DNA of 33,917 nucleotides. Origin: a virus. The number at the start of each line of letters is the position of its first letter. Within the stretch, counting starts at the first letter, position 1. Both the position numbers and the translations under genes were made by a program. The notes under the pieces are model-generated. The model made no database searches. It worked only from the letters and a program-made list of their open reading frames with translations, and had not been told where the DNA came from. Location of the stretch: the IMG/VR virus record IMGVR_UViG_3300031839_001622, positions 1 through 33,917 of that record; one strand, given 5' to 3'. Of this stretch, positions 1 through 33,917 are shown in pieces.

Positions 1-151
1 TCCCCAAGCCCTCCCCACTTCGCGAAAATTGCCCGCCCTCACCAGTCAGCGTCAGGCGCGCTAGCGCCTGTCTCTTTCCCTCTCCCTCCCCAAACTCCCC
101 CAATTGGGGACCCGTAGGGAAGGGGCGCGGGGAAGGGCGCGGCGGCAGGGC
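1..151. repeat. Left copy of 151-bp terminal direct repeat
   Basis: The first 151 bases match the last 151 bases without any gap. Seven positions differ (18, 45, 101, 105, 115, 120, 134), and every difference is an A/C or G/T exchange. A repeat that starts at the first base and stops at the last base is what an assembled circular molecule gives when its contig ends overlap, so this is probably terminal redundancy and not a biological duplication. The copy holds TCCCCAA heptamers, the hairpin CAGGCGC-GCTA-GCGCCTG (52-69) and the dyad CCCCAATTGGGG. Confidence 0.9.
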
Positions 152-292
152 GGGCGTGATTTCGCCTTGCGCGATGGCGGCAGCAGCGATCAGCAAGGGC
201 CGTTCGGCCGTCGCGGACATGCCCGCCGACACCTGAACGGCAGAAGGGGCGGCAAGAATGCCGCCCGCTTGATCTGATGTTAAATTCGCCAT
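2..292 (-). CDS. Hypothetical protein, partial, running off the window start
   Basis: This open frame begins MANLTSDQAGG at 292 and stays open to the first base of the window. If the molecule is circular it continues into the right end and stops at 33762-33764, giving about 97 residues. The N-terminal half is Ala-rich; the C-terminal half is low-complexity Gly/Glu/Pro because it crosses the TCCCCAA repeats read on the minus strand. A GGGA lies about 7 bases before the ATG, and heptad operator site A lies 16 bases upstream. That position is the main argument for a real gene. No family is recognised. The C-terminal part could instead be non-coding control DNA. Confidence 0.4.
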   Translation of the reverse strand, partial: MANLTSDQAGGILAAPSAVQVSAGMSATAERPLLIAAAAIAQGEITPALPPRPSPRPFPTGPQLGEFGEGEGKRQALARLTLTGEGGQFSRSGEGLG

Positions 293-304
293 CCTGAAAT
301 CCCA

Positions 305-335
305 TGCAGCTTGCTAGCGTGCTAGCAAACTATCA
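305..335. promoter_or_regulatory. Heptad operator site A
   Basis: The site contains a perfect dyad, TTGCTAGC-GT-GCTAGCAA (311-328), followed by CTATCA. It fits the pattern shared by six sites: an outer TGATAGC-like heptad, one base, an inner TGCTAGC heptad, two bases, then the inverse complements. It lies 16-40 bases upstream of the minus-strand start at 292. No TTGACT box is visible here, so the promoter is less clear than at sites B and E. Confidence 0.7.
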
Positions 336-356
336 CTTGGGGCGCAAGCGCGACGT

Positions 357-857: not shown

Positions 858-2550
858 AGCTTGACCTATCCCCGGCGAAATCCGGCGCGGCAAGATATTT
901 GCGCACCAGTTCGTCATCCTGCCAAGTGAAGCCTTTGAAAACCATGTTTCCATTGTATTTCCCTTTCTCGAATCCCTTTTCCGTCAGGTTGTCGCGCAAG
1001 GCCGCGTCCGAAAACACGCGCGCGCCGTTCTCGCGCGCCCACGCCTTGAAAGCCCGGAAGAATTCAGGCGTTGGGGTGCGGGCCTTGGGGTCCAGCGTTG
1101 CGCAATCCTTCAGGAACGAACCCACGGGGTCCGCCGCTTCCATGATCTTGTCTTTTAGCGTCTGCATGACCTCGGGCGGGTCAATCCCGGGCGGCGTCCC
1201 ATACCCCCCCTCTATCCGGGTGTAGAAATCCCGGAACCCATCCAGCATCCAATTCAGAATCCCAGGCAGTTCGCCCATAAGTTCCGCCTCGGCCTGCAAT
1301 TCCGTCTTGCGCTTTTCGGGCGGAAGTTCGCGCAGATTGACCTCAAGCGGGATAAATACCAGACGCCGCCGCGTGCCCTCGTCCTCATCCTTGATCTTGG
1401 GGGTTCGGTTGAACGAAATCACGGGGATTGCCGTAGGCCGATAAATAAACTGATCCTTGTTCAGACCACGGACCGGGCGCAGATCCCCACCCGTCAGCGA
1501 CTTGATTTTCTTTGCGCTGAAAACGTCCGTCACGGCCGGTTCCGACGCGATGATAACCCGCGCGCCGGGCAGGTCCATTTCCTCGGGGGTGGCCTGCGAT
1601 GGCGATTGCGATTGCGTTTGCAGGAACATTTCCACCCGCGCCGGGGCCGCATAGCCACCGAACGCGTCCAGCACCTCGCCAAGAATTTTCGTCAGGGTGG
1701 ACTTGCCGTTGCCACCGCCGCCGCGCAACAGCAGCGCGACCTGCGCCACGTTGCGCCCGAACAGCAGCGCGCCCGCGCATCGCTGGAAACAGGCCCGAAC
1801 GGCCGCGTCCGGGAAAATCAGTTCCATGAACGCAACCCAATTCGGGCAGTCCGCACCGGGGACAAACGGCACACCCGCGCATTTCGTGGGGTGCGACGAA
1901 CGGTCAACCGGCTTCAGCCAGCCGCGCCGCCATTCGGACAAGGGCGTGGGTTGACCGTTGACCATTTCGCGCGGGGGCTGATCCTTTGCGGCCCGCAGGT
2001 CCACCATGCCATTCTTTACGACCAGGACCCAGGGATTCGAGTCCAATTCCTGAACCTCAACCCGGACTTGCCACGCGGCCGCCTCTAGCGCCTTTTTTTG
2101 CTTGTCCACGTTGCCGCACTTGATCTTGTGCGCGGTCAGCTTTGCAATCAGTTCCGCGCGCAGGTCCTGCGCCACGTCGTCCAGGTCCACATATCGCTTG
2201 CCCTTGCCGCCCTTGGACGCCTTTTCCGCCTCGGACCGCATCCGCCGATTCAACGTGAATTCGTCAAACTCGCGCGTCTTTACCGCGTCGATTTCCTCTT
2301 GAATCAGGGCCGGAAGGCGGGCCGCGATCTCGGCCGCACGCAGGCCGCCCGACTGGAACGAAAAGCGGTTGCCATCCCATACCCCCCAATCCTTGCCGCT
2401 CACGAATATCATATCCGCCGCATAGGCGGCCAGCAGGCGCGCCGCGTTCCCCGCGTCGTTCAATTCAAGGTCCGCGCGCTCCTGCACCGTCAGCGCAAAC
2501 CGGGCCGGGGTGGCGTCCGCAAAGTGACGGCCCGCCAATTGGTCAATCAT
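850..2550 (-). CDS. P4-type SF3 replicative helicase (DUF5906-like)
   Basis: The protein has 566 residues from ATG 2550, whose ATGA overlaps the stop of the primase gene. The Walker A motif GGGGNGKST lies near the middle, followed by acidic and sensor-like segments (ARVIIASEP, then PVISFNRTPKI) and an arginine-rich EGTRRRLVFIPL segment. This is the superfamily 3 order of phage/plasmid primases of the P4 and D5 type. The N-terminal 200 residues are a D5-type region that usually precedes the ATPase. It has no Toprim or CHC2 zinc finger; these are in the upstream gene, so the P4 alpha activities are split between two translationally coupled proteins. Its job is probably unwinding at the phage lytic origin. 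Confidence 0.88.
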   Translation of the reverse strand: MIDQLAGRHFADATPARFALTVQERADLELNDAGNAARLLAAYAADMIFVSGKDWGVWDGNRFSFQSGGLRAAEIAARLPALIQEEIDAVKTREFDEFTLNRRMRSEAEKASKGGKGKRYVDLDDVAQDLRAELIAKLTAHKIKCGNVDKQKKALEAAAWQVRVEVQELDSNPWVLVVKNGMVDLRAAKDQPPREMVNGQPTPLSEWRRGWLKPVDRSSHPTKCAGVPFVPGADCPNWVAFMELIFPDAAVRACFQRCAGALLFGRNVAQVALLLRGGGGNGKSTLTKILGEVLDAFGGYAAPARVEMFLQTQSQSPSQATPEEMDLPGARVIIASEPAVTDVFSAKKIKSLTGGDLRPVRGLNKDQFIYRPTAIPVISFNRTPKIKDEDEGTRRRLVFIPLEVNLRELPPEKRKTELQAEAELMGELPGILNWMLDGFRDFYTRIEGGYGTPPGIDPPEVMQTLKDKIMEAADPVGSFLKDCATLDPKARTPTPEFFRAFKAWARENGARVFSDAALRDNLTEKGFEKGKYNGNMVFKGFTWQDDELVRKYLAAPDFAGDRSSYD

Positions 2551-3647
2551 CGACACGATTTCAGCCTTTCCGCATTCTCGGACGCCGCAAGGTCCGCAAA
2601 GTCCATATCCAAGTCCCACCGCCCGGCCGGAACCGTCAGCAGGACGCGCAAGCCCCGACCCTCAAGCCGGGACTTTGCGCTTTCGTATAGTTCCCGGGCC
2701 TCGCGCGGCCGCTTGCTGGACCCCTCCCCAAGTAGAAGGACCTCGGACACGCCGGGGCGCGGGGTCCACAGGCTGGCAAGGTCCTGCGCCGGTCCCGTGA
2801 TCGCGCCGCGCGATAACCCGGCCTCGGCCGACCAGCCGACATGGCCCGCCGCCATCAGGCCCGACCACCCGGCCAGCGTTGTTTCAATCCCCTCACCCAC
2901 GACAACGGCGGCCGTGGGCGATGAAAGGGCGCAGGGCTGGCCGAACATTTCCCCGGTCCGGCCAAGCCATTGCTTGGCGACCTTGGCCCCGTCAGGGTGG
3001 CGCGCGCGGCCCGTGGCCGTGATCCAGGTTCTATGAACCCCGACCAGCGAACCGCGCCCCACGGCCGCGACCATTGCCGGACCCTGGAAGGCCGGGCGAT
3101 CCCCGTCGCGGGCCGTCAAGGACGGTTGCAGGCGCAAGGACGGGGGGACACCCCCGATTGCGCGCAGATCGACACCCCGGGCCGCCAGATAGTCCGCCAG
3201 CAGGGGCGCGCCCCGTTCGGCCGTGCCCCACAACTGGCGGGCGATGCGCTCCCCCTCGGCCGCCCTGCGGGCGGTTTCGCGCTTGGCGTTAGCCTTGGCT
3301 CGTTCGCGCTTGGCCGTCAGTTCCGCCTTGCGTTCGTCCGACATTTCACCGGCCACCCCGGCCTGATCCGCCAGACGACGAACGGCCGTTGTGAAGTCCA
3401 CCGCGTCCAGCGCCATAACGAAGTCAATAACCGTTCCGCCCGCGCCGCACCCGAAACACTTGAACCACCCGCCCGCGCCGCCCTTTTCGACAACGTGAAA
3501 CGATGCCGTCGCCTCGCCATGAAGGGGGCAAGGCCCCCACCAATCGCCGCGCGCGGGGGCCGATTTGGCAAGGTCCCAAACCACCCCCGACGCTTCCACC
3601 ACCTCGCGCAAAGAAACCTGCGCCTTGATCCGATCCGACTTGTTCAC
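2547..3647 (-). CDS. DNA primase with CHC2 zinc finger and Toprim domain
   Basis: The protein has 366 residues. The CHC2-type zinc finger is in the first 75 residues: CPLH, then CFGC about 25 residues later. A charged helical stretch (about 105-135) follows, then a Toprim-type domain with the acidic motif VVVGEGIETTLAGW near residue 250 and a later LLLGEG. Families of this layout synthesise RNA primers on single-stranded DNA. It is the first gene of an operon with the SF3 helicase (ATGA overlap). Its start lies 27 bases downstream of operator site B, which overlaps a good promoter, so its expression is probably repressed by the heptad-binding protein. Confidence 0.87.
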   Translation of the reverse strand: MNKSDRIKAQVSLREVVEASGVVWDLAKSAPARGDWWGPCPLHGEATASFHVVEKGGAGGWFKCFGCGAGGTVIDFVMALDAVDFTTAVRRLADQAGVAGEMSDERKAELTAKRERAKANAKRETARRAAEGERIARQLWGTAERGAPLLADYLAARGVDLRAIGGVPPSLRLQPSLTARDGDRPAFQGPAMVAAVGRGSLVGVHRTWITATGRARHPDGAKVAKQWLGRTGEMFGQPCALSSPTAAVVVGEGIETTLAGWSGLMAAGHVGWSAEAGLSRGAITGPAQDLASLWTPRPGVSEVLLLGEGSSKRPREARELYESAKSRLEGRGLRVLLTVPAGRWDLDMDFADLAASENAERLKSCR

Positions 3648-3668: not shown

Positions 3669-3702
3669 GCGGGTGATAGCTTGCTAGCGTGCTAGCAGTC
3701 AA
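3669..3702 (-). promoter_or_regulatory. Primase promoter with heptad operator site B
   Basis: The intergenic gap before the primase gene holds TGATAGC, T, TGCTAGC, GT, GCTAGCA (plus strand 3674-3697). Read on the minus strand, TTGACT is followed after 18 bases by TATCAC, a plausible -35/-10 pair with the heptads filling the spacer. A protein bound to the heptads should block RNA polymerase. Site E has the same geometry in front of 8816. Confidence 0.75.
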
Positions 3703-3707
3703 GGGGT

Positions 3708-4469
3708 TCAGGTCAATTCCGCCGCCAGACCCGAAACCAGCCTGCGGGCGTTCGCCTGAAACGCGGCCCGGGCAAACCCCCGGGGAGTGGCGGACCTGAT
3801 GTTTTTGGTTTTCATCGACTTGCCCCCCAATTTTTTCCAGATCAGCGACCCCCCGTAAGAGTCGCCCAAGGGGACCGGCCGCCGCTCGGGCATGACGAAT
3901 CCGCCGCCCGTCCACAGGCAAGTCCGCTTTGTGTATGCGTCCCGGTCCGGGATATAGTCCGGCCAGCGCGGGTGCCGGGCCTCGCCCTCGGGGATATAGC
4001 CCCCGAATTCATTTGGGTTGAACGTATGGTCCGGCCTGCGCCAAAACGTGGACAGGACGGACGCGGGGTTTTCTGCAAACCAGGCGCAGCCAAGGGCCGC
4101 GCCCAGATCGCCGCACCATTTGGCCCGGTCCGCCGCCTTGTGCTGAAACAGCGGGTCAACGGCCCGCTTGGCAGCGAAATGCCGCGCGCCGGACACGGCC
4201 ATGTCCGTGCAGACCGGAAACGACGACAGGAACACCGCGCGCCCCGCGAACCTGTCCGCCAGCCCCATGACGTTGCCACGGTCCCACAGGTCCAGCCGCT
4301 CTTTCGTGATGGAACCGCCACCCGGAAACCGGGTCACGTCGCCCGCCTCGGAATGCTGAATGTCAAAGCAATAGCAGTCGAAACCGGCGCGCGCCCACGG
4401 CAAAACCGCCTCGCCCGTATAGCAGTAAAGGGACAGCACAACGGGCCGCCGAATTTCACACATGAACAT
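3708..4469 (-). CDS. Cytosine-C5 DNA methyltransferase-like protein
   Basis: The protein has 253 residues from ATG 4469, one base after the stop of the HD gene. Motif I is probably LSLYCYTGEAVLPWARAGFD (SAM binding). FDIQHSE fits motif II, SFPVCTDMAVSG carries the PC dipeptide of motif IV with the likely catalytic Cys, and FAENPASVLS fits the ENV-type motif VI. The family would transfer a methyl group to cytosine in DNA. The protein is short for this class and no clear target-recognition domain or late motifs are visible, so activity and specificity are uncertain. No restriction enzyme lies nearby, so an orphan phage methylase protecting its own DNA is likely. Confidence 0.72.
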   Translation of the reverse strand: MFMCEIRRPVVLSLYCYTGEAVLPWARAGFDCYCFDIQHSEAGDVTRFPGGGSITKERLDLWDRGNVMGLADRFAGRAVFLSSFPVCTDMAVSGARHFAAKRAVDPLFQHKAADRAKWCGDLGAALGCAWFAENPASVLSTFWRRPDHTFNPNEFGGYIPEGEARHPRWPDYIPDRDAYTKRTCLWTGGGFVMPERRPVPLGDSYGGSLIWKKLGGKSMKTKNIRSATPRGFARAAFQANARRLVSGLAAELT

Positions 4470-4470
4470 A

Positions 4471-5076
4471 TCAGGACACCCCCAATTCATCAGCGCGGGC
4501 GGCAATCAGGGCCTTGGCACGGGCGATGAAAAGGTGCGCGTCGAACCTCTGAACATGGGCCTGCGCCTGCCAGAACCGGAACCATTTTTCCGCCACGGCC
4601 AGCCATTCGTCCGGGACCTCGGGGGCGGGCGACCAGTCCCCCTTAACGCCGATGAAATGCCGCTCACAGTCCAGGGCCAGCCGGTCAATCTGGCCGACCT
4701 CGGCCGCGAAATCGACCGGGACGCGGGCCACGCCCGCAACCGCCGCCCACAGGCCGGATTCAATCGGCCCGAAGTCCCGCAACAGGCACTTAACGGGCGT
4801 GACCTGATCGCCCAGGACATATTCCGGGGCGTCATGCAGAAGGGCCTGAAGGCGGGTGGCGATGGGCAGGCCCATCTGATCCGCGACCGCCTCGCAAAAT
4901 AGCGAATGCCACGCCACCGAATAAAACGGCAGATCGCGCCGCGTATGGCCGCCAAACCGCACCTTGGCGGAAAGCCCGTGGCCTATATCCTCAATTCGGA
5001 TCGCCTCGGCCGTGGGGTTGAGCACGTCCAGCAAGCCGGACCCCGTGAAAACGATTCCCCGGAATTTCATGTCCAT
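4471..5076 (-). CDS. HD-domain phosphohydrolase (YfbR-like nucleotidase type)
   Basis: The protein has 201 residues; GAAGGA precedes ATG 5076 at good spacing. The HD signature is visible: SVAWHSLFCEAVA supplies the first His, LLHDAPEYVLGD the HD pair, and a later Asp follows in QIDRLALDCE. These residues bind a divalent metal. Phage homologues are usually annotated as HD hydrolases or 5'-deoxynucleotidases that act on dNMPs. The gene sits between a DNA methyltransferase and small unknown genes in the early operon, which fits a role in nucleotide pool control. The substrate cannot be told from sequence alone. Confidence 0.8.
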   Translation of the reverse strand: MDMKFRGIVFTGSGLLDVLNPTAEAIRIEDIGHGLSAKVRFGGHTRRDLPFYSVAWHSLFCEAVADQMGLPIATRLQALLHDAPEYVLGDQVTPVKCLLRDFGPIESGLWAAVAGVARVPVDFAAEVGQIDRLALDCERHFIGVKGDWSPAPEVPDEWLAVAEKWFRFWQAQAHVQRFDAHLFIARAKALIAARADELGVS

Positions 5077-5336: not shown

Positions 5337-5574
5337 GGATCGCCACCGCAGCGTCCAGTTGCCGGGACAGGCGGCGCAGGTCCGCAGCCTGCGCCCGGGA
5401 CAGAAGGTCGCCTGCCGGGCGATGTTCGCGAACGATGGCCGAAAGCAGGAACGTGGCCGAAAAGGCCGCGAAATCGGACGGCACGTCAGCCACGCGGCAC
5501 AGCTTCAGCGCCACCGCCACGGACGGCAACGACGCGGGGAACAGATCGACAGACCGGGCTGCACTTGATTTCAC
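5320..5574 (-). CDS. Hypothetical protein, 84 aa
   Basis: The ATG at 5574 overlaps the stop of the preceding gene (ATGA) and the stop overlaps the next gene, so it is held in the leftward operon by translational coupling at both ends. The protein is mostly helical and Ala/Leu-rich, with a basic C-terminal part (RAQAADLRRLSRQLDAAVAIRGRTA). No motif or family is recognised. Confidence 0.6.
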   Translation of the reverse strand: MKSSAARSVDLFPASLPSVAVALKLCRVADVPSDFAAFSATFLLSAIVREHRPAGDLLSRAQAADLRRLSRQLDAAVAIRGRTA

Positions 5575-6158
5575 GACGCAGCCCCCACGATCAGCGCCAG
5601 AACCCGGCCGATATGGCGATGAAGGATCAGCGATCCGGCATCCGCGCGCGAAATGCGCTGCGCGGCCGCCACCCGGGCCAGAAACAGGGCCGTCTTTTCC
5701 GTCAACGGGGCCTGAATGCCCCGGACACAGGGGGCGGCAAGCACGGTTCCGCGCTTGATTGACCCTTTCGCCTTCAGAAGCCCGGCGGGGGCCGTGCCCT
5801 TCAGGTCCGCGACCGTGAAAATCTCAGGGAAGGCCGCGACATACCCCAGGACCAGCGCCACAGCCTCGCCCCAAAATGTCAGGCCCATCGCCGCCGAAAT
5901 TCTGGAAAGTTGGGCCTCGGTCGCGGAAAAGGCCCGGACCGACTGACACAGCCCCGCCGGATGCTGCACCGGGTCAACCGGAACGCGATTCAGGAAGCCC
6001 GGGCGAGACAGGTTCACGGAAAGCAACGTGTCCAGATCGGACGCGCGGAATTCCGCCACCGCGCGGCGGTTCGCCGCCTGCATCATCCGCCGGGCCGTGA
6101 CCGGCGAACCCACACAGATTGACATTTGTTCATTGAAATCATTGTGTTGCAGCGACAT
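5571..6158 (-). CDS. Hypothetical protein, first gene of the small-gene cluster
   Basis: The protein has 195 residues, with GAGGGG at good distance before ATG 6158. The N-terminal third is polar and helical (TARRMMQAANRRAVAEF); the centre holds WGEAVALVLGYVAAFPEIFTV; the C-terminus ends in a hydrophobic stretch (GRVLALIVGAAS) too short to call a membrane segment. It is transcribed divergently from repA across a 348-bp gap holding operator site C and the iterons, so it may be controlled together with plasmid replication. No family is recognised. Confidence 0.65.
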   Translation of the reverse strand: MSLQHNDFNEQMSICVGSPVTARRMMQAANRRAVAEFRASDLDTLLSVNLSRPGFLNRVPVDPVQHPAGLCQSVRAFSATEAQLSRISAAMGLTFWGEAVALVLGYVAAFPEIFTVADLKGTAPAGLLKAKGSIKRGTVLAAPCVRGIQAPLTEKTALFLARVAAAQRISRADAGSLILHRHIGRVLALIVGAAS

Positions 6159-6220: not shown

Positions 6221-6247
6221 TGATAGCAAACTAGCGCGCTAGCTATT
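6221..6247. promoter_or_regulatory. Heptad operator site C between leftward operon and repA
   Basis: The site reads TGATAGC, A, AACTAGC, GC, GCTAGCT: two heptads followed by inverse complements with minor changes. On the minus strand it ends in GCTATCATCT, where TATCAT matches the -10 consensus at five of six positions and points at the gene starting at 6158. A protein bound here could act on both divergent transcripts. The AT-rich iteron region starts about 190 bases to the right. Confidence 0.7.
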
Positions 6248-6406: not shown

Positions 6407-6435
6407 CCTGAATTTTCATTGCAAATTTCACCGTC

Positions 6436-6501
6436 CTGCATCTAAAAACACGAAACCCTGCATCTAAAAACACGATTCGCTGCACTCAAAAACACGAAAG
6501 G
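6436..6501 (+). repeat. Three 22-bp iterons upstream of repA
   Basis: Three direct repeats begin at 6436, 6458 and 6480, a period of exactly 22 bases (two helical turns). The core is CTGCATCTAAAAACACGA; the third copy varies to CTGCACTCAAAAACACGA. They end about 6 bases before the repA start and merge with its ribosome-binding site AAAGGGAAAC. Iterons in this place normally bind the Rep protein for initiation and may let it repress its own gene. Confidence 0.85.
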
Positions 6502-6506
6502 GAAAC

Positions 6507-7520
6507 ATGGCGGACCCCCTGACACAGAACCGGCACCCGCAAGCCGACCTATTCCTTTTCGACGTGGCGTCAGCCCCGATAAAGGACCTTGTGGACACGC
6601 TGGAGCACCCGTTTTATTCACTGTCCAAGCGGCCGGAAATGGCCCCGCGCATCTATCGCCACGGGTCCGTCCAGATCGAAATGATTCCATCCCGCAAGGG
6701 CCTGCCGACGATCTATGACAAGGATCTGTTGATTTACGCCGTGTCCAAGGTCGCAGCCGGGATGCGGCGGGGCCTGCCCGTGGGGCCGGTTGTGGAAATG
6801 CCATCCGCTGAAATCCTGCAATTCACGAACCGGGGCACGTCTGGGCGTGAATATCGCGCGCTCGAAGATGCGCTAGAACGGCTGGCCGGAACGCTTGTCA
6901 AAACCACCTTGCGCGCCAAGGGCGGGGGCAAAGACGTGTCCATGTTCCACCTAGTCGAAATCGCCACCATCGGCCGCCGTGGCCGCCTTGGCGTCACCGG
7001 CTGCACCATCCGCTTGCCCGCGTGGGTTTTTGAAGCAATCGAAGCAAACGCCATCCTAACCCTGCACCCGGATTATTTCCGCCTCAGACGGCCGCTTGAA
7101 AAACGACTCTATGAATTGGGGCGCAAGCATTGCGGCCGCCAGCCGCGATGGAGCATTGGACTGGACACCCTGCACCGGAAATCAGGGTCACAAGGCGCGA
7201 TCCGAAATTTCCGCGTGGCCGTCAAGCGCCTGGCCGAAACCGACCACCTGCCGGATTATCACGTTCAGCTTGACACAGCGGACGATCATGTGACGTTCCG
7301 CCCCCGCGACACACCGGACGCCGACGCCACCGAACCGCCACCCCTGCCCCCATTGTCCGCCTGCACAATTGACGCGGCAAAGGCGGTCCGTCCAGGCGCG
7401 GACGTTTACGCCCTCGAAGGCGAATGGCGGGCATGGGCGGCGGACAAGGCCCCACCGGCCGACGCCGATCTGGCGTTTCTCGGGTTCGTCAGGAACAAGC
7501 CCCGGGTGCGAACGGGTTAA
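6507..7520 (+). CDS. repA: Plasmid replication initiator, RepA (RPA family)
   Basis: The protein has 337 residues; AAAGGGAAAC precedes ATG 6507. The N-terminal half (about 10-200) has the look of the replication initiator protein A family found on Rhodobacterales and other alphaproteobacterial plasmids: DLFLFDVASAPIKDLVDTLEHPFYSLSK, then YDKDLLIYAVSKV, then an FRLRRPLEKRLYELGRKHCG segment that ends the winged-helix region. The C-terminus is Pro/Asp-rich and probably a flexible tail. It should bind the iterons just upstream and start replication of the circular prophage. It is the first of eight rightward genes, opposite to the phage genes, and its presence together with a full virion module is the main evidence for a phage-plasmid. 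Confidence 0.85.
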   Translation: MADPLTQNRHPQADLFLFDVASAPIKDLVDTLEHPFYSLSKRPEMAPRIYRHGSVQIEMIPSRKGLPTIYDKDLLIYAVSKVAAGMRRGLPVGPVVEMPSAEILQFTNRGTSGREYRALEDALERLAGTLVKTTLRAKGGGKDVSMFHLVEIATIGRRGRLGVTGCTIRLPAWVFEAIEANAILTLHPDYFRLRRPLEKRLYELGRKHCGRQPRWSIGLDTLHRKSGSQGAIRNFRVAVKRLAETDHLPDYHVQLDTADDHVTFRPRDTPDADATEPPPLPPLSACTIDAAKAVRPGADVYALEGEWRAWAADKAPPADADLAFLGFVRNKPRVRTG

Positions 7521-7527
7521 CCTTTAA

Positions 7528-7559
7528 GATAGCTTGCTAGCGCACTAGCTTGCTATCAT
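7528..7559. promoter_or_regulatory. Heptad operator site D upstream of parA
   Basis: This is a full four-heptad site in the 88-base gap between repA and parA: GATAGC, T, TGCTAGC, GC, ACTAGCT, T, GCTATCA. On the plus strand the last heptad forms TATCAT, a good -10 box pointing to parA; no clear -35 was found at 17 bases. It could be both the parA operator and the partition centromere, as with parS sites of type Ib systems located before the par operon. Confidence 0.75.
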
Positions 7560-7608
7560 TCTATGAATGACATAAACGGGCAGAACAAACCCAACGGGAC
7601 AACGTGCT

Positions 7609-8244
7609 ATGATTCTTTCACTTATCAGCCAAAAGGGGGGCGTCGGGAAATCCACCCTGGCGCGCCTTTTGGCCGTCGAATTCACCCGCGCCGGATGGGC
7701 GGTCAAGATTGCCGATCTGGACCCCGCGCAAGGCACATCAACGAAATGGACGTTGCGGCGTGACGAAATGGGCGTGAACCCTGAAATCCCGGTCCAGAAA
7801 TACCGCGACCCGCGCCGGGCGATCCAGGACGCGGGCAATCACGACCTGCTAATCCTTGACGGCCCCGCGCACTCCGAACGCTCGGGGGCCATCATGGCCC
7901 ACGCGTCGGATTTGGTCCTGATCCCCACCGGCTATTCCGTGGACGATCTCGACCCGCAAATTCAGGTTGCCTATGACCTCGAAGCGGCCGGGGTGCCGCC
8001 GGAACGAATCAGGTTTGCATTCTGCCGGGCGCGCGGCAGCGCAAAGGTTGACAGGTCCGCCCGTGATTTCATCAAGCGGGCAGGACTGACCGCCCTTGCC
8101 GCATCCGTCCGGGAACTGCCATCCATCCAGCAGGCCCACGCAATCGGCCGGACAGCCGCCGAAACCGGGCACAAGGGAATTGACGGGGAAGGGCGCGCGA
8201 TGGCCGCCGAAGTTTCTAACCTATTGACCGGGGAAAGGCCCTGA
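7609..8244 (+). CDS. parA: ParA-family partition ATPase (small, type Ib)
   Basis: The protein has 211 residues. The deviant Walker A motif KGGVGKST, with the signature lysine, starts at residue 9; IADLDPAQGTS and LLILDGPAHSE follow as the A' and B motifs. At this length it lacks the N-terminal HTH of P1-type ParA, which makes it the short type Ib form that works with small RHH or HTH partners. The protein should oscillate or form gradients on the nucleoid and segregate the plasmid prophage. The gene is one base ahead of the RHH gene and downstream of operator site D. GGGAC serves as a weak ribosome-binding site. Confidence 0.92.
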   Translation: MILSLISQKGGVGKSTLARLLAVEFTRAGWAVKIADLDPAQGTSTKWTLRRDEMGVNPEIPVQKYRDPRRAIQDAGNHDLLILDGPAHSERSGAIMAHASDLVLIPTGYSVDDLDPQIQVAYDLEAAGVPPERIRFAFCRARGSAKVDRSARDFIKRAGLTALAASVRELPSIQQAHAIGRTAAETGHKGIDGEGRAMAAEVSNLLTGERP

Positions 8245-8245
8245 C

Positions 8246-8470
8246 ATGAACGACAAGAAAAAAGGACTGGACGCCATCGCGCCACCGCCCCGCCGCGCCT
8301 CGGGCAATCTTTCGCAACAGGCAGAGGCGGCCAAGGTTCAATTCAACGTCAGGATCAGCAACGACCGCGCGACCTATGCAAAGGTCCTGGCCGCCAAGAC
8401 CGGCCGCCCGCTGAATGATCTTGTCGAAGAAGCAATTACCCTTTTGGAAGAAAAACACGGGGCCGTGTGA
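8246..8470 (+). CDS. Ribbon-helix-helix centromere-binding protein (ParB-like, possible repressor)
   Basis: The protein has 74 residues. A basic, flexible N-terminus (about 1-30) precedes VQFNVRIS, the beta strand that would enter the DNA major groove, then two helices (ATYAKVLAAKTG and LNDLVEEAITLLEEKH). This is the ribbon-helix-helix fold of omega, ParG and similar type Ib partners. It is translationally linked to parA (one-base gap; GGGAAAGG before the ATG). RHH dimers bind short heptads in direct and inverted order, and six such arrays occur in the window, one before parA. I infer that it autoregulates, marks the centromere and may repress phage genes. An antitoxin role is less likely because it follows parA. 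Confidence 0.8.
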   Translation: MNDKKKGLDAIAPPPRRASGNLSQQAEAAKVQFNVRISNDRATYAKVLAAKTGRPLNDLVEEAITLLEEKHGAV

Positions 8471-8691
8471 TGAACATTCCGCAGCAGATTTATTGCGCGC
8501 TAGACGCCGCGCACAAGGAAAACAAATACCCCCACGACTACGCCCGCGACCCCGACGACGTTGTGGCGGAAATTCACGACTGGACAGGCATTCTAAATTT
8601 CGACCCTGAATTTATGCACGACGCAGCGACCGCGCGCGTGGCGGTTCGGGAATGGCGCAAGGCGAACCCACCACCACCCACCACCGTCTGA
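8470..8691 (+). CDS. Hypothetical protein, third gene of the par operon
   Basis: The protein has 73 residues from ATG 8470, overlapping the RHH stop by one base (TGATG), so it is translationally coupled to the partition genes. It is acidic and polar in the middle (YARDPDDVVAEIHDWTG) and ends in a Pro-rich tail. A strong terminator follows 12 bases after the stop, so repA to this gene may form one transcript plus an internal parA promoter. No family is recognised. A partition accessory role or a small toxin are both possible but unsupported. Confidence 0.6.
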   Translation: MNIPQQIYCALDAAHKENKYPHDYARDPDDVVAEIHDWTGILNFDPEFMHDAATARVAVREWRKANPPPPTTV

Positions 8692-8747: not shown

Positions 8748-8785
8748 CTTGACTGATAGCATGATAGCACGCTATCAAGCTATCA
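8748..8785 (+). promoter_or_regulatory. Promoter with heptad operator site E
   Basis: This is the most regular of the six sites: TGATAGC, A, TGATAGC, AC, GCTATCA, A, GCTATCA (8754-8785), a nearly complete dyad of four heptads. TTGACT (8749-8754) stands 18 bases before TATCAA, so the heptads occupy the spacer and -10 of a normal promoter. It drives the small genes from 8816. The same layout occurs before the primase gene. Confidence 0.8.
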
Positions 8786-8815: not shown

Positions 8816-9088
8816 ATGACCACCCGCCGCAATGAAGTCCTGAAGTTCACCACCCCGGACCGCAAAATTCACTTGCGCAAACTATCCCTTGAAGAACGCT
8901 TTTCCGGCATGATCGGCGCGCCGGTTGAATTGACCATCAGGGGGGAACGCGAATTCACCTTTTCAACCGAAACCGTTTGCGCCGACCTGCCCGGCCGGGT
9001 TGCCGCGTTTTTCGGACCCCTCGCCACCGTCACCGGGGCGCATGACCCGGAATGCGGTTCGTTCGCCTATGTCACGGCGGCCCACTAG
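8816..9088 (+). CDS. Hypothetical protein, first gene of operator-E operon
   Basis: The protein has 90 residues; AAGGAAAC precedes the ATG. It reads as a small beta-rich globular protein (VLKFTTPDRKIHLRKLSLEERF, then VELTIRGEREFTFST). Two cysteines are present but form no pair motif. The gene starts 31 bases after operator site E, so it is probably expressed only when the heptad-binding protein is absent or displaced. Candidate roles such as antirepressor or anti-host protein come from position only; no family is recognised. Confidence 0.6.
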   Translation: MTTRRNEVLKFTTPDRKIHLRKLSLEERFSGMIGAPVELTIRGEREFTFSTETVCADLPGRVAAFFGPLATVTGAHDPECGSFAYVTAAH

Positions 9089-9956: not shown

Positions 9957-9986
9957 CGACACCCCGGACCGACCGCCAGAACGGCC

Positions 9987-10025
9987 AAAAGCCCCGCCCC
10001 GGAATGAACCGGGGCGGGGCTTTCT
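9987..10025. terminator. Bidirectional terminator at a convergent gene boundary
   Basis: A 13-bp stem, AGCCCCGCCCCGG with its exact complement, encloses a 6-base loop. T-rich bases follow on the plus strand (TTTCTC), and AAAA precedes it, giving a T-run on the minus strand. It separates the rightward small-gene operon (ending 9956) from the leftward gene ending at 10030. Confidence 0.88.
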
Positions 10026-10029
10026 CATG

Positions 10030-16498: not shown

Positions 16499-18694
16499 TT
16501 ACAACGCAGGCGCGCCCGCGCCGGGCGAAAAGTCCGACAGGTTGGCCCATTCATCGCGCGCGCGGGTCCAGTAATATCGCACGTCGCCACTATCCAGGCC
16601 GATTTCGGACGTTTCAATTTCGACATTCGCGCCAGCCTGAAACGGCATCCCGATTTGCGTTGCCGCAAGCGGATTGTTCACCGCCGCGACATACAGCAAC
16701 AGTTCACGGGCGCGCCGATCATTAGATTGACGAATCGTTATATCAATGCGGCCGGAACCCGGGGCAAGGCGTGGGGCGGGCGGGGTTGCGACCGTCGCCG
16801 CCGGTCCCATCGCCATGACCCATTCCGACACCGCCCATTCCGAACGGCCATAAGCCCCGACCGTCTGGACCCGGACGCGGTAATAATGACCCACATCAAC
16901 CCACGGAATGGACGCCGTGAAGATCCCCGATTCATCCGCCGCCGTAACATCAAGCCCGCCGCCCGTTCGCCAGCCGGACGGATCGGACGCGCCATCCTCG
17001 CGCCTCTGCCATTGCCACATATACCCCGACGCCGACGCAGAAGCGGACGCGGACCAGGACGCCAGAACGCCCGGAACAACCGAGTCCCCACTTTGACCGG
17101 CCGCCGCACTTCCCGTCACCATCACGGGGACGGGCGGGGGTTGAACGCGGCCGCGCGCGCCCGTGAAGTCTCCGGGGCGCATGGCTTGTTCCTCGGCCTC
17201 GGGGTTCCATTCCCAAATTTCGTCGGATTCCTCGACCAGCACCGCCGGAAGGCGGACAGTCACGGACGCGTCGTCATTCAGGCCCGCAGCCGGGGAAATG
17301 TTCTGCATCTCATATTTGCGATTCCAGCCCGTATAAGGCGGCGGCAAGTCCAGATCGCAGACCGACCCCGACACCAGGTCAAAGCAATCCGGGAACAATT
17401 CCGCCGACACCTGGCGCTGCATCCGCGACCGCATCACCGCGATTTTTGCCAGCCGTTCGGCCTGCCGGTAATCAATCACGAAATCAAGGTCTAACGTCAA
17501 CCGCTTGGGAACGCCGCCGTCCTCGGCCTGCGCGGCGGGGACGACATAAGCAGGCGTGTCCGCGCTTTCAAAGGCGCGATCCGGGGCGAGGAAACGGGCA
17601 ACCGCTTCCGTGTAAAGATCATCCGACGACCGCCACCGCACCAGATCGACCGGCTGGCCGTCCGTGAAATCCGAAATCGTCTTGACGCTTTCACGCGCCA
17701 CCCCCGGAACAATGCCCAATTTCCCGCCGATGCGGGTGAACCGGGACGCCCCGGCCGCCATCAGCGGTTCTAGCTGATCCTCGATTTCAGCCCCGTCACC
17801 CCACACCAGCACACCGTCGCAGCAATACCGGGGGATCGACCCGAACCCCTTGACGGGAACGGGCTGATCCGCCACGTCCGCCGCCCAGGGAAACGTTTCC
17901 AGCATCAAGTAATCGTCGGAATACGGCCGCAGCGGATTGTTCCGCAGCGCATCCAGGACGATCAGGCCCTGATTCCGGGTGAACCTCTCCACCCCGTCGC
18001 GCGGGTCCAGGACAATCGACCAGTTGCCATCAACATTCAGTGACGGCGGGGTGGCGGGCCATCGCTCTTGGCGATGTTCGTCTTTGCCGCAATGCAGTTT
18101 CGCCCAAAGGACCGTCCGGCCGCGCCACGCATCCGACGCCGTGAAATAGCCCTCTGTTTCATCAATGATCTGGGCCGGGCAAGCCGTCTGATCGCCGCGC
18201 CCGATCCAATATCTGACATGACCATCAAAGGGGGCATTGGTCGCAACCGCGCCGCCAGCCGGGCCGAAATCGAATTCGTCGCCGGTTTTCTCAACCTCGC
18301 GCTTGTCAAACAGCACCGTGAACGGCCCCGCGCTCGGCCTGCTATTCAGCAGGTAGCAGATATACAGGTCGCGGCCCCGAACCGTCCAGGCAACAGGGGT
18401 GCCGGGCGCCCATGTCTTGCCGTAAACAAACCGATATGCGGGCAAGGACGTGGGGCGCGTCAATTCGGACCTGATGGCCTCGCCGCGCGGTTTCTTGCGC
18501 AGCGAACCCACAAGGGCCGAAAGACCATAGGAAACGGCCAGATTGACGACGCCCGAAATCACCGCGAACGCCACCGTCCCCGCCTGCACCCCGAAGGCCG
18601 TGGCGATCGCCAGCGTAACGGGTTCAGCCTCGGCCCGATCAGGGACCAGCGAAAAACCCACGATTGCCGTTGTTATCAGAAGCATTTTCCGCAT
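16499..18694 (-). CDS. Tail tip attachment protein (lambda J-like)
   Basis: The protein has 731 residues from ATG 18694 (AAGGG upstream); the gene overlaps the previous one by 56 bases. The N-terminus has MRKMLLITTAIVGFSLVP, then a long hydrophobic stretch (about 25-65), as in many J-like proteins that begin with glycine/alanine-rich hydrophobic helices. RPTSLPAYRFVYGK, LYICYLLNSRP and a central hub region match J-type tail hub proteins in character. The C-terminal third carries a fibronectin-III-like domain (WQWQRREDG, then YYRVRVQTVGAYGRSEW). It should form the central tip of the siphovirus tail and organise receptor binding with the esterase fibre. Confidence 0.8.
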   Translation of the reverse strand: MRKMLLITTAIVGFSLVPDRAEAEPVTLAIATAFGVQAGTVAFAVISGVVNLAVSYGLSALVGSLRKKPRGEAIRSELTRPTSLPAYRFVYGKTWAPGTPVAWTVRGRDLYICYLLNSRPSAGPFTVLFDKREVEKTGDEFDFGPAGGAVATNAPFDGHVRYWIGRGDQTACPAQIIDETEGYFTASDAWRGRTVLWAKLHCGKDEHRQERWPATPPSLNVDGNWSIVLDPRDGVERFTRNQGLIVLDALRNNPLRPYSDDYLMLETFPWAADVADQPVPVKGFGSIPRYCCDGVLVWGDGAEIEDQLEPLMAAGASRFTRIGGKLGIVPGVARESVKTISDFTDGQPVDLVRWRSSDDLYTEAVARFLAPDRAFESADTPAYVVPAAQAEDGGVPKRLTLDLDFVIDYRQAERLAKIAVMRSRMQRQVSAELFPDCFDLVSGSVCDLDLPPPYTGWNRKYEMQNISPAAGLNDDASVTVRLPAVLVEESDEIWEWNPEAEEQAMRPGDFTGARGRVQPPPVPVMVTGSAAAGQSGDSVVPGVLASWSASASASASGYMWQWQRREDGASDPSGWRTGGGLDVTAADESGIFTASIPWVDVGHYYRVRVQTVGAYGRSEWAVSEWVMAMGPAATVATPPAPRLAPGSGRIDITIRQSNDRRARELLLYVAAVNNPLAATQIGMPFQAGANVEIETSEIGLDSGDVRYYWTRARDEWANLSDFSPGAGAPAL

Positions 18695-25993: not shown

Positions 25994-27592
25994 CTATCCG
26001 GCAGGTTCCGACGCCTCGCCCGGGTCCGGTTCGCCACCCGGCAGGCCGGGGACTTCAGGGGGCGGGGAAGGCGCAGGGCCTTGCGTTTCCGGCAGCATCA
26101 TGGACGACGCCAGCGGCACGCCAGCGGCGCGCAACGTGTCCAGATCATTTGCGAACCTCGAAACCGTTTGCTCGAAATCGCCGCCGCGCTCGGACACAAC
26201 GTCAGACGGGGCGATAAGCCGGTTTTTCAGGTTCATGTCATTGGCGGTTGCGTCGTCTTTCGGGTTCGGGGAAATCCACCCCCGGCCCCGCCACGTCGCC
26301 GCATCCGCCGCGCGGTCCAGATCGTCCAGCGTGACGCCGGGCAATTGCCCGGACAGGTAGGCCGCCTGCAACCAATGCCGGAAAACCTCGCCGTGCAGAC
26401 CTTCCCACAAATCACGCTGGAACATGCGCCATTCGTCGCGTTCCTCGCCCCGGCCATCCTTCAGGCTGGAAAAGTTGGAACCCTCCATGTCGGACGAAAG
26501 ACCGGCATAGGACACGCCCAGGCCCGCAGCGCCGCCACGGATCAGGCTTTTCAGAAAACCCGGCATGTTCGCATCCGGATAGTTCGACGGGTTCGCCGTC
26601 GCCTTGTAACCCGGGGGCAGATCAACGATCATACCCGCTTCCATTTCCTCGGGCAGTTCGTCACCATCAGCCCCAGGGGCCGCAGATGGAACGCCCTCGG
26701 GGTCCGTGTTTTCAAGGAACACCATCGCCGCCGCACCGTAATGCGCCGCCGTCATGGCCGCTTCCTCATACTGTCCAAGCAGGTTGAACCGGCGCAGGGC
26801 CGTGTGACTTTCGGGGACGCCTAGGTTCTGGCCGGTTTCCGATTGCCGGACCGTGTGAACGATCTGATCCGCCGGAACCCGCAGGCGGGTGCGCAGGCGG
26901 CCCGTGTGCGACTCGGCCGGGTGGCCGTCAAAGAAGTGATAAGCAACCGGCCGATTCAGCGCGTCGAATTCCACCCCGCCGTCCACATAGCGGCCGCCCC
27001 CCAGGTCCGCCACCATGTCCACGTCCAGCAGGTCAACCGAAATCAGTTGGACCTGAAACCCGAACCGGCCAAAGGCCCGGCCGCGCCACATGCGCAGGAA
27101 GAAATTCCCCTCACGCGCAAGCATCGTCGCCGCCGTCTTTTCGACATGCCACCAGGACAGCTTGCCGCAGACCGTGCAATTTCCGCGACGGCCCCACTTG
27201 CGCCACGCCTTTTCAATCGTATCATTCAGCGCCCGGTCCCGGGCACCGTCAGACAGGCGCGCATCCATTTGCAGGGCGATCCCGGCAGGCCCGACGACGT
27301 GACGCCGGACCATCATTTCATAGGATTTCAGGTAATCCACGTTCTGCGCCGCATAGCGGGCATGATTGACCAGCCCGCGCAGGTCCTGCCGGGCCTCGGC
27401 CCGGGGCGAGTCCGCCATGATCCCGCCGAATCCCCCGACATTCCGGCCGGGCTTGGCCGCCTTGAACCGGCGGACAGCATGGCGGGGAAGGCCCGCAGGG
27501 GCCAAGGTCACGGGCGGTTCGGCCCGGACCACGGGGGCCGACGATTCGCGGCCGAACATGCGGCCGAACAGGCCGCGCCGCTTGTCAGACAT
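25994..27592 (-). CDS. Portal protein, lambda type
   Basis: The protein has 532 residues; its start overlaps the gpW-like gene by 8 bases. RQDLRGLVNHARYAAQNVDYLKSYEMMVRRHVVGPAG (conserved pieces LVNHARYAAQNVDY and MMVRRHVVGPAG), WRKWGRRGNCTVCG and GNFFLRMWRG lead into VQLISVDLLD, and the middle region IVHTVRQSETGQNLGVP is characteristic of lambda-family portals. The C-terminus is Pro/Gly-rich. Twelve copies form the channel through which the terminase packages DNA. The order terminase, gpW-like, portal, protease-capsid matches lambda with the lysis genes inserted. Confidence 0.92.
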   Translation of the reverse strand: MSDKRRGLFGRMFGRESSAPVVRAEPPVTLAPAGLPRHAVRRFKAAKPGRNVGGFGGIMADSPRAEARQDLRGLVNHARYAAQNVDYLKSYEMMVRRHVVGPAGIALQMDARLSDGARDRALNDTIEKAWRKWGRRGNCTVCGKLSWWHVEKTAATMLAREGNFFLRMWRGRAFGRFGFQVQLISVDLLDVDMVADLGGGRYVDGGVEFDALNRPVAYHFFDGHPAESHTGRLRTRLRVPADQIVHTVRQSETGQNLGVPESHTALRRFNLLGQYEEAAMTAAHYGAAAMVFLENTDPEGVPSAAPGADGDELPEEMEAGMIVDLPPGYKATANPSNYPDANMPGFLKSLIRGGAAGLGVSYAGLSSDMEGSNFSSLKDGRGEERDEWRMFQRDLWEGLHGEVFRHWLQAAYLSGQLPGVTLDDLDRAADAATWRGRGWISPNPKDDATANDMNLKNRLIAPSDVVSERGGDFEQTVSRFANDLDTLRAAGVPLASSMMLPETQGPAPSPPPEVPGLPGGEPDPGEASEPAG

Positions 27593-28161: not shown

Positions 28162-28185
28162 TGATAGCGTGATAGGATTATAGCG
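28162..28185. promoter_or_regulatory. Heptad operator site F with TATAAT box
   Basis: TGATAGC, G, TGATAGG, AT, TATAGCG: two good heptads, the rest degenerate. Read on the minus strand it contains TATAAT, a perfect -10 hexamer directed at the gpW-like gene at 28151. No clear -35 is seen at 17 bases. This is the weakest of the six sites by sequence but it shares the position just upstream of a start. Confidence 0.55.
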
Positions 28186-31378: not shown

Positions 31379-32026
31379 CTAACCTTCCTTGAAAAGCCCC
31401 TCAACCGCCGCGCTTGCCTCGCGCAAAACATCATCAAGGATGCGCTGCGCCGTTTCGACCGCCGCGCCATCCAGGGCCAATTCGCGCGCCAATACGTCCG
31501 GCATTGCGTCCAGGCCGTCCCGGATCGCGCTAAATGCGGCCTCGACCGCGCCCGCAACGTCCTGCGCCAAGATCAGATCGCGCCGCTTTTGGGCCGCAAT
31601 CATCCATTCCTTTTCAACGGCCAGCGCCTCTTTCTGATCCTTGGGGGACAGCGCGGCCCGCGCCCGGTCCCCCTGCGCCCCGCCCAAAAGTTCAAGGCGC
31701 AATTGGGCAACCGCATCCTCGGCAAGCCGCCGGTCCGTCGCCTCGCGGGCGTCCCGGGCCTGCCGCCACGCGAACGCCACCGACAGGCGGAATTCATATG
31801 ACCGCCCGTTCGTCCCCATTGTGACCCACGGAATCCGTTCGTCCGGCGGGCCGATCAGCCACGCATCAACCGTTGTCGTGGACACGTCCAGCGCAGCCGC
31901 CAGAAGTTTCTTGTTCACCAGCGCGTCGGGAACCCCGGGGGGCAATGGAAAACGGGAAACCAAATCCCGTTCCTGCGCCGTCAGGGGCGGCAGATCGCGC
32001 GAACCCGCCTGATTTTCGCCTTTCAT
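31379..32026 (-). CDS. Terminase small subunit (Nu1-like)
   Basis: The protein has 215 residues from ATG 32026; a longer frame upstream lacks domain content. DALVNKKLLAAALDVSTTTVDAWL is a winged-HTH start as in lambda Nu1, followed by VTMGTNGRSYEFRLSVAFAWRQAR. Helices 90-215 (EDAVAQLRLELLGG, KDQKEALAVEKEWMIAAQKRRDLI) would form the oligomer. It recognises the packaging site and recruits the large subunit. No strong ribosome-binding site was found. Confidence 0.85.
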   Translation of the reverse strand: MKGENQAGSRDLPPLTAQERDLVSRFPLPPGVPDALVNKKLLAAALDVSTTTVDAWLIGPPDERIPWVTMGTNGRSYEFRLSVAFAWRQARDAREATDRRLAEDAVAQLRLELLGGAQGDRARAALSPKDQKEALAVEKEWMIAAQKRRDLILAQDVAGAVEAAFSAIRDGLDAMPDVLARELALDGAAVETAQRILDDVLREASAAVEGLFKEG

Positions 32027-33766: not shown

Positions 33767-33917
33767 TCCCCAAGCCCTCCCCAATTCGCGAAAATTGCCC
33801 GCCCTCACCATTCAGCGTCAGGCGCGCTAGCGCCTGTCTCTTTCCCTCTCCCTCCCCAAACTCCCCAAATGGGGGACCCGGAGGGCAGGGGCGCGGGGAC
33901 GGGCGCGGCGGCAGGGC
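33767..33917. repeat. Right copy of 151-bp terminal direct repeat
   Basis: This matches positions 1-151 without gaps and with seven substitutions. Read on the minus strand, the frame that starts at 292 continues through this copy and ends at 33762-33764, which supports joining the two ends in a circle. Confidence 0.9.

Follow-up and report, generated by a model that had tools for sequence, protein, structure and literature searches.

Upstream of a DNA primase gene in the stretch of viral DNA analyzed here (the window; 33,917 nucleotides, positions 1 to 33,917 of IMG/VR record IMGVR_UViG_3300031839_001622), short tandem repeats lie between two promoter-like hexamers, raising the question of what these repeats are, where else they occur, and which protein reads them. 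The closest named relatives of the window are the Rhodobacter phages RcRhea, RcCronus, and RcSaxon, which are listed in a table as temperate by bioinformatic prediction, yet lack an integrase (PMC8601537). We likewise recognized no integrase among the window proteins scanned, and judged by this absence, its gene order, its DNA similarity, and its block of genes for Rep, ParA, and a ribbon-helix-helix (RHH) protein, the window is a Cronusvirus-like phage-plasmid. The virus probably exists in plasmid form inside purple and marine bacteria. Rep, ParA, and RHH are encoded in a rightward block, and the primase, early, and structural genes run leftward. Positions 1-151 and 33767-33917 form a terminal repeat that is 95% identical and differs by single substitutions alone; the contig probably represents an entire genome of ≈33.77 kb, either closed into a circle or permuted, whose ends are error-prone.

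Octads at two promoters and in six arrays

On the minus strand, a −35-like TTGACT (3697-3702) and a −10-like TATCAC (3673-3678), both read directly from the sequence, are separated by an 18-base spacer, GCTAGCACGCTAGCAAGC, and TATCAC lies 26 bases ahead of the primase GTG at 3647. A promoter-like element of the same design stands on the plus strand 5′ of the small-gene operon (8749-8778), where TTGACT (8749-8754) is followed after 18 bases (GATAGCATGATAGCACGC) by TATCAA (8773-8778), all of it ahead of the ATG at 8816. Both elements had been proposed in the initial annotation, and both are present, the first spanning 3702-3673. The pattern TTGAC-N19-TATCA has exactly two matches in the 33.9-kb window where 0.01 are expected, and none of 100 shuffles contained two. 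A generic sigma-70 consensus scan picked neither promoter because TATCAC and TATCAA lack a T at the required position 6.

The repeats between the hexamers had been described as heptads. They are instead octads of the form NGMTAKCN with a CTAG, CTAT, or ATAG core (core forms GATAGC, GCTAGC, and GCTATC), and the cores start every 8 bp, at 3675, 3683, and 3691 and at 8755, 8763, 8771, and 8779. The primase array (3675-3696, minus strand) consists of three octads, in the gene sense GCTAGCAC, GCTAGCAA, and GCTATCAC, that fill the promoter spacer, and the small-gene array (8755-8784, plus strand) consists of four (GATAGC, GATAGC, GCTATC, and GCTATC). Because TTGACT directly abuts the array and TATCA falls within the third octad (as GC-TATCA) at both promoters, the 18-bp spacing follows from the array, and its identity at the two sites is not independent evidence of a common design. 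The real shared feature is the abutment of TTGACT and array, found in one register at four sites in two phages (3697, 8749, and two in RcRhea). The design recurs at RcRhea 25106 and 23914, the latter in a TTGACT-octad promoter copy (23914-23887) that serves the lineage-specific gp25 of RcRhea and is nearly identical to the small-gene one.

Scans allowing two mismatches, and then scans with a matrix built from the RcRhea octads alone, place both sites in a set of six window arrays, beginning at 313, 3675, 6222, 7528, 8755, and 28163, so that the repeats are not restricted to two operons as the initial annotation had it. Each array lies above every shuffle (the primase array scores 31.8 against a shuffle maximum of 15.5 with the RcRhea-trained matrix), and all six are intergenic in a window whose non-coding share is 7%. 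Four octads upstream of parA-rhh (7528-7557, plus strand), a candidate parS and operator, are followed by a degenerate fifth, TCTATG, at 7560-7565. Three octads at 6222-6243 (minus strand) lie 5′ of the leftward early operon, whose first gene is 5571-6158, and also 264 bp upstream of rep. Another three (28163-28184, minus strand) are directly 5′ of the head-tail joining, portal, and capsid genes. The last three-octad array, 313-334, to which we assign no strand, lies in a long non-coding gap leading toward a gp44-like gene and structural genes, and the gap between gp43 and gp44 in RcRhea contains no equivalent array. This C-rich gap occupies window positions 1-356; at the matching place RcRhea has a C-rich gap of different sequence (locus L001, 1339-1705).

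By eye, TATC occupies the gene-proximal octad in ≈10 of 11 arrays and GATA the distal octad in five of 11, a preference for TATC that fits a −10 role. We also observed that the arrays at 313-334 and 3675-3696, both lineage-specific, have 20 identical bases in common, which suggests that one array may have arisen by duplication.

The partition locus and its neighboring replication genes

The four-octad array at 7528 adjoins a gene for a 211-residue ParA-like partition ATPase (7609-8244, plus strand; CbiA/AAA_31 and phrog_164 matches) with a Walker motif, KGGVGKS, near its N terminus and without an N-terminal DNA-binding domain (HTH). Directly 3′ of parA lies rhh (8246-8470, plus strand), encoding a 74-residue RHH (Arc-like) protein (phrog_31093, 1.1e-26) that we propose as the octad-binding centromere protein and repressor. 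The small ParA, the downstream RHH gene, and the adjoining tandem array are features of type Ib (ParA/RHH) partition systems. The RHH protein has weak matches to several Pfam RHH families, all under the curated cut-offs, and a profile search of PDB sequences returned no match, although a missing match says little about relatedness to the pSM19035 omega protein. The AlphaFold model of the monomer is poor (pLDDT 68) and gives no usable fold check, likely because the RHH strands form only in the dimer. An N-terminal Pro/Arg motif is kept in all ten aligned RHH proteins and would, by analogy, suit a ParA-stimulating tail like that of ParG.

Tandem direct repeats on an element that carries a replication initiator might themselves be iterons. 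The window encodes a plasmid-type replication initiator protein A (RepA-type; 6507-7520, plus strand; PF10134, 1.9e-70), but directly 5′ of its gene are three 22-bp iterons of its own (6435-6500, plus strand) that are conserved in RcRhea, and the octads differ from them in period, sequence, and distribution. We rejected the reading of the octads as Rep iterons on account of this separate system and regard it as very improbable.

The primase itself (2547-3647, minus strand; PF01807, 3.7e-19; phrog_510, 1.5e-62) combines a CHC2 zinc finger with a DUF7146/Toprim-like region. Just upstream lies a DNA methylase gene (phrog_757; 3708-4505, minus strand) for which we detected no similarity at the RcRhea locus, and the arrival of this methylase may have left the primase needing an array promoter of its own.

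Arrays in related phages, plasmids, and genomes

The Cronusvirus phages RcCronus, RcRhea, and RcSaxon share the Rep-ParA-RHH block with the window, are 77-80% identical to it at the nucleotide level in matching parts, and have four orthologous arrays. Unlike the window, they have a primase without its own array, a different DNA methylase, and additional arrays before the orpham gp25 and near tail genes. Scanned with the window matrix, RcRhea has arrays at 3749, 17651, 23887, 25079, 26385-26401, and 27888, plus a weak one at 31495 inside the primase gene. The orthologous pairs (window/RcRhea) are 8755/25079 at the small genes, 7528/26385 at parA, 6222/27888 at the early operon, and 28163/3749 at the head-tail joining, portal, and capsid genes. 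Because the RcRhea primase sits inside the early operon, with an array at the promoter heading that operon, the control logic is kept in RcRhea although the primase array is lineage-specific. Among viral contigs, the only close relative was a copy of RcCronus; one further match, L006, looked like chance, and two ParA matches, L011 and L012, lack an octad array upstream of parA. The integrase-bearing relative vB_DshS-R4C, whose annotation contains neither rep nor partition genes, has no octad arrays.

Beyond phages, the RHH gene has relatives on three plasmids and eight genome contigs, in every case following a gene for ParA. The ParA-RHH loci with arrays lie on plasmids as well as contigs, from Rhodobacterales, Acetobacteraceae, and an Acidobacteria bin. 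Upstream of parA in these 11 relatives, which are not fully independent (L018 and L021 are close, as are L017, L019, L022, and pDY25-F), CTAG, CTAT, or ATAG cores (CCTAG-type) recur every 8 bp: at lag 8 we counted 25 core pairs, whereas shuffles gave 0.60 (maximum 4). Lags of 16 and 24 gave 24 and 20 pairs, and lag 7 gave one, so that a heptad period is rejected. The arrays of pDY25-F and RHOApf show phase slips. In the three relatives for which we had wider sequence, arrays also adjoin the par operon at its far end and occur at a few other places. Plasmid octads follow the consensus TCCTAGGA and phage octads TGCTAGCA, defining a ParA-RHH family with its own predicted octad centromere code, while in the putative DNA-reading strand of the RHH proteins one residue differs (QFNKR versus QFNVR). 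At least three RHH matches were present in 394 genomes (family of a Paracoccus relative), a count over the part of the candidates that was scored and a poor guide to the rarity of the protein family.

Chance or a composition artifact would have to account for 11 hits where shuffles average 0.1 and for arrays conserved at orthologous places; this origin is refuted by the lag-8 counts, the two-match pattern statistics, and the cross-trained matrix scans, and its likelihood is negligible. The comparison also bears on which protein binds the octads. Binding by the RHH protein is a prediction, and several small window proteins lack a family match, so that a host regulator or a small phage protein, such as the 74-residue product of 8467-8691, might bind instead. 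However, octad-period arrays accompany ParA-RHH loci across Rhodobacterales, Acetobacteraceae, and an Acidobacteria bin and are absent from R4C with its annotation free of partition genes, making a binder other than RHH improbable.

A proposed dual role for the RHH protein

Finding the same octads 5′ of parA-rhh in the window and its phage relatives, we infer that the RHH protein probably binds the octads as both centromere and operator, so that partition, early replication, and possibly the late genes would share one repressor in the lysogen. The initial annotation had postulated shared repression linking DNA synthesis to the partition locus, and the comparison gives good support to common control by RHH, without the heptads, the independent spacing, or the limit to two operons. 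To go by RHH precedents, RHH dimers probably bind adjacent 8-bp boxes side by side. The four-box arrays at 7528 and 8755 would probably constitute the centromere (parS) and autoregulatory operator. Promoter elements are overlapped or abutted by the arrays of the primase, the early operon, the late head-tail genes, and the small genes, so that RHH bound there should block RNA polymerase. In the primase and small-gene promoters the boxes fill the spacer and include the −10-like TATCA, which should exclude polymerase. In the plasmid prophage, one partition protein might in this way hold down partition, early lytic replication, and possibly the late genes. In support, the window proteins that we scanned included no recognizable repressor, CI-like or otherwise. 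Counting against this reading, arrays 6222, 7528, and 28163 lack TTGACT, array 313 has no clear promoter hexamer, the primase array is restricted to the window lineage, and only two independent phage lineages are known.

The arrays could alternatively be dispersed parS sites only, with RHH autoregulating parA but leaving the primase, early, and late promoters essentially unregulated. Most arrays do cluster around parA-rhh in the three plasmid relatives searched more widely, and the phage-plasmid N15 has several separate centromere sites bound by its partition protein, IR1-4 (PMC7205306). In the window, however, two arrays lie inside a promoter spacer and most of the rest occupy a 5′ gap immediately ahead of genes, and the convergent gap at 9957-10029 has none. 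Moreover, most distal arrays have three boxes, and in plasmid pSM19035 three contiguous repeats activate ParA poorly whereas four suffice (PMC9499535). We therefore consider a purely centromeric function rather unlikely and retain the dual role; by analogy with pSM19035, three-box arrays may be operators only and four-box arrays both centromere and operator.

More tentatively, it is possible that the RHH partition protein is the only immunity repressor of the prophage, so that segregation and lysogeny are one function and array length sets the role, with at least four boxes acting as centromere and three as operator. If extra genome copies titrated RHH, or if RHH were lost, partition failure would then be coupled to lytic induction. 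The protein that probably helps to distribute the virus between daughter cells may also be its dormancy switch.

The nearest precedent is the delta/omega system of pSM19035, in which several operons have promoters overlapped by tandem repeats that an RHH ParB binds, both partitioning and repressing (PMC9499535). Like the window, it pairs a small ParA with an RHH protein and places short tandem repeats at promoters, and its single protein both binds the centromere and represses several operons, as we propose for the window RHH. The window has a period of 8 where the delta/omega system has 7, a CTAG/CTAT core in place of WATCACW, and 3-5 units in place of 7-10; by period and core, its octads stand apart from the repeats of the omega family proper. 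It also differs in being a phage, with arrays ahead of the primase, early, and head-tail/capsid genes as well. In TP228, ParG is the RHH partner of a ParA-type ATPase, autorepresses, and binds the centromere (PMC7308502). ParF-ParG-parH resembles the window in its array of short boxes and flexible N-terminal tail with an arginine motif, but its boxes, as described, are confined to the par locus and have another sequence, with no phage genes (PMC7308502). The dispersed centromeres of N15 are scattered over a phage-plasmid much like the octads but belong to another class, with an HTH-type SopB (ParB) and four single inverted repeats instead of an RHH protein and tandem octads at promoters. The N15 Sop system reportedly facilitates late gene expression, as the title of a 2008 paper by Ravin has it (cited in PMC11652158). 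MetJ is an RHH repressor that acts on tandem 8-bp palindromic met boxes reminiscent of the window octads, but it is a chromosomal metabolic regulator without a ParA partner, unlike the window system.

RHH partition proteins that repress are thus already known, and N15, with its HTH SopB, is a known phage-plasmid that has several separate partition sites. Among the open-licence papers searched, we found none that described the octad code or that placed an RHH partition protein on phage primase, early, and capsid-region promoters. The coupling of plasmid maintenance to the lytic switch in phage-plasmids is poorly known beyond a few cases, and a 74-residue protein with an 8-bp code offers a small system testable in isolated phages (RcRhea and RcCronus, Rhodobacter capsulatus YW1).

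Finally, we noted a second conserved promoter-like element, TTGACTTTTAGAACCG, which occurs twice per phage and without octads, at 14834-14810 and 33006-32982 (minus strand) in the window and at 17688 and 35252 (plus strand) in RcRhea. The genes downstream of its copies are a tail-region gene and gp45.
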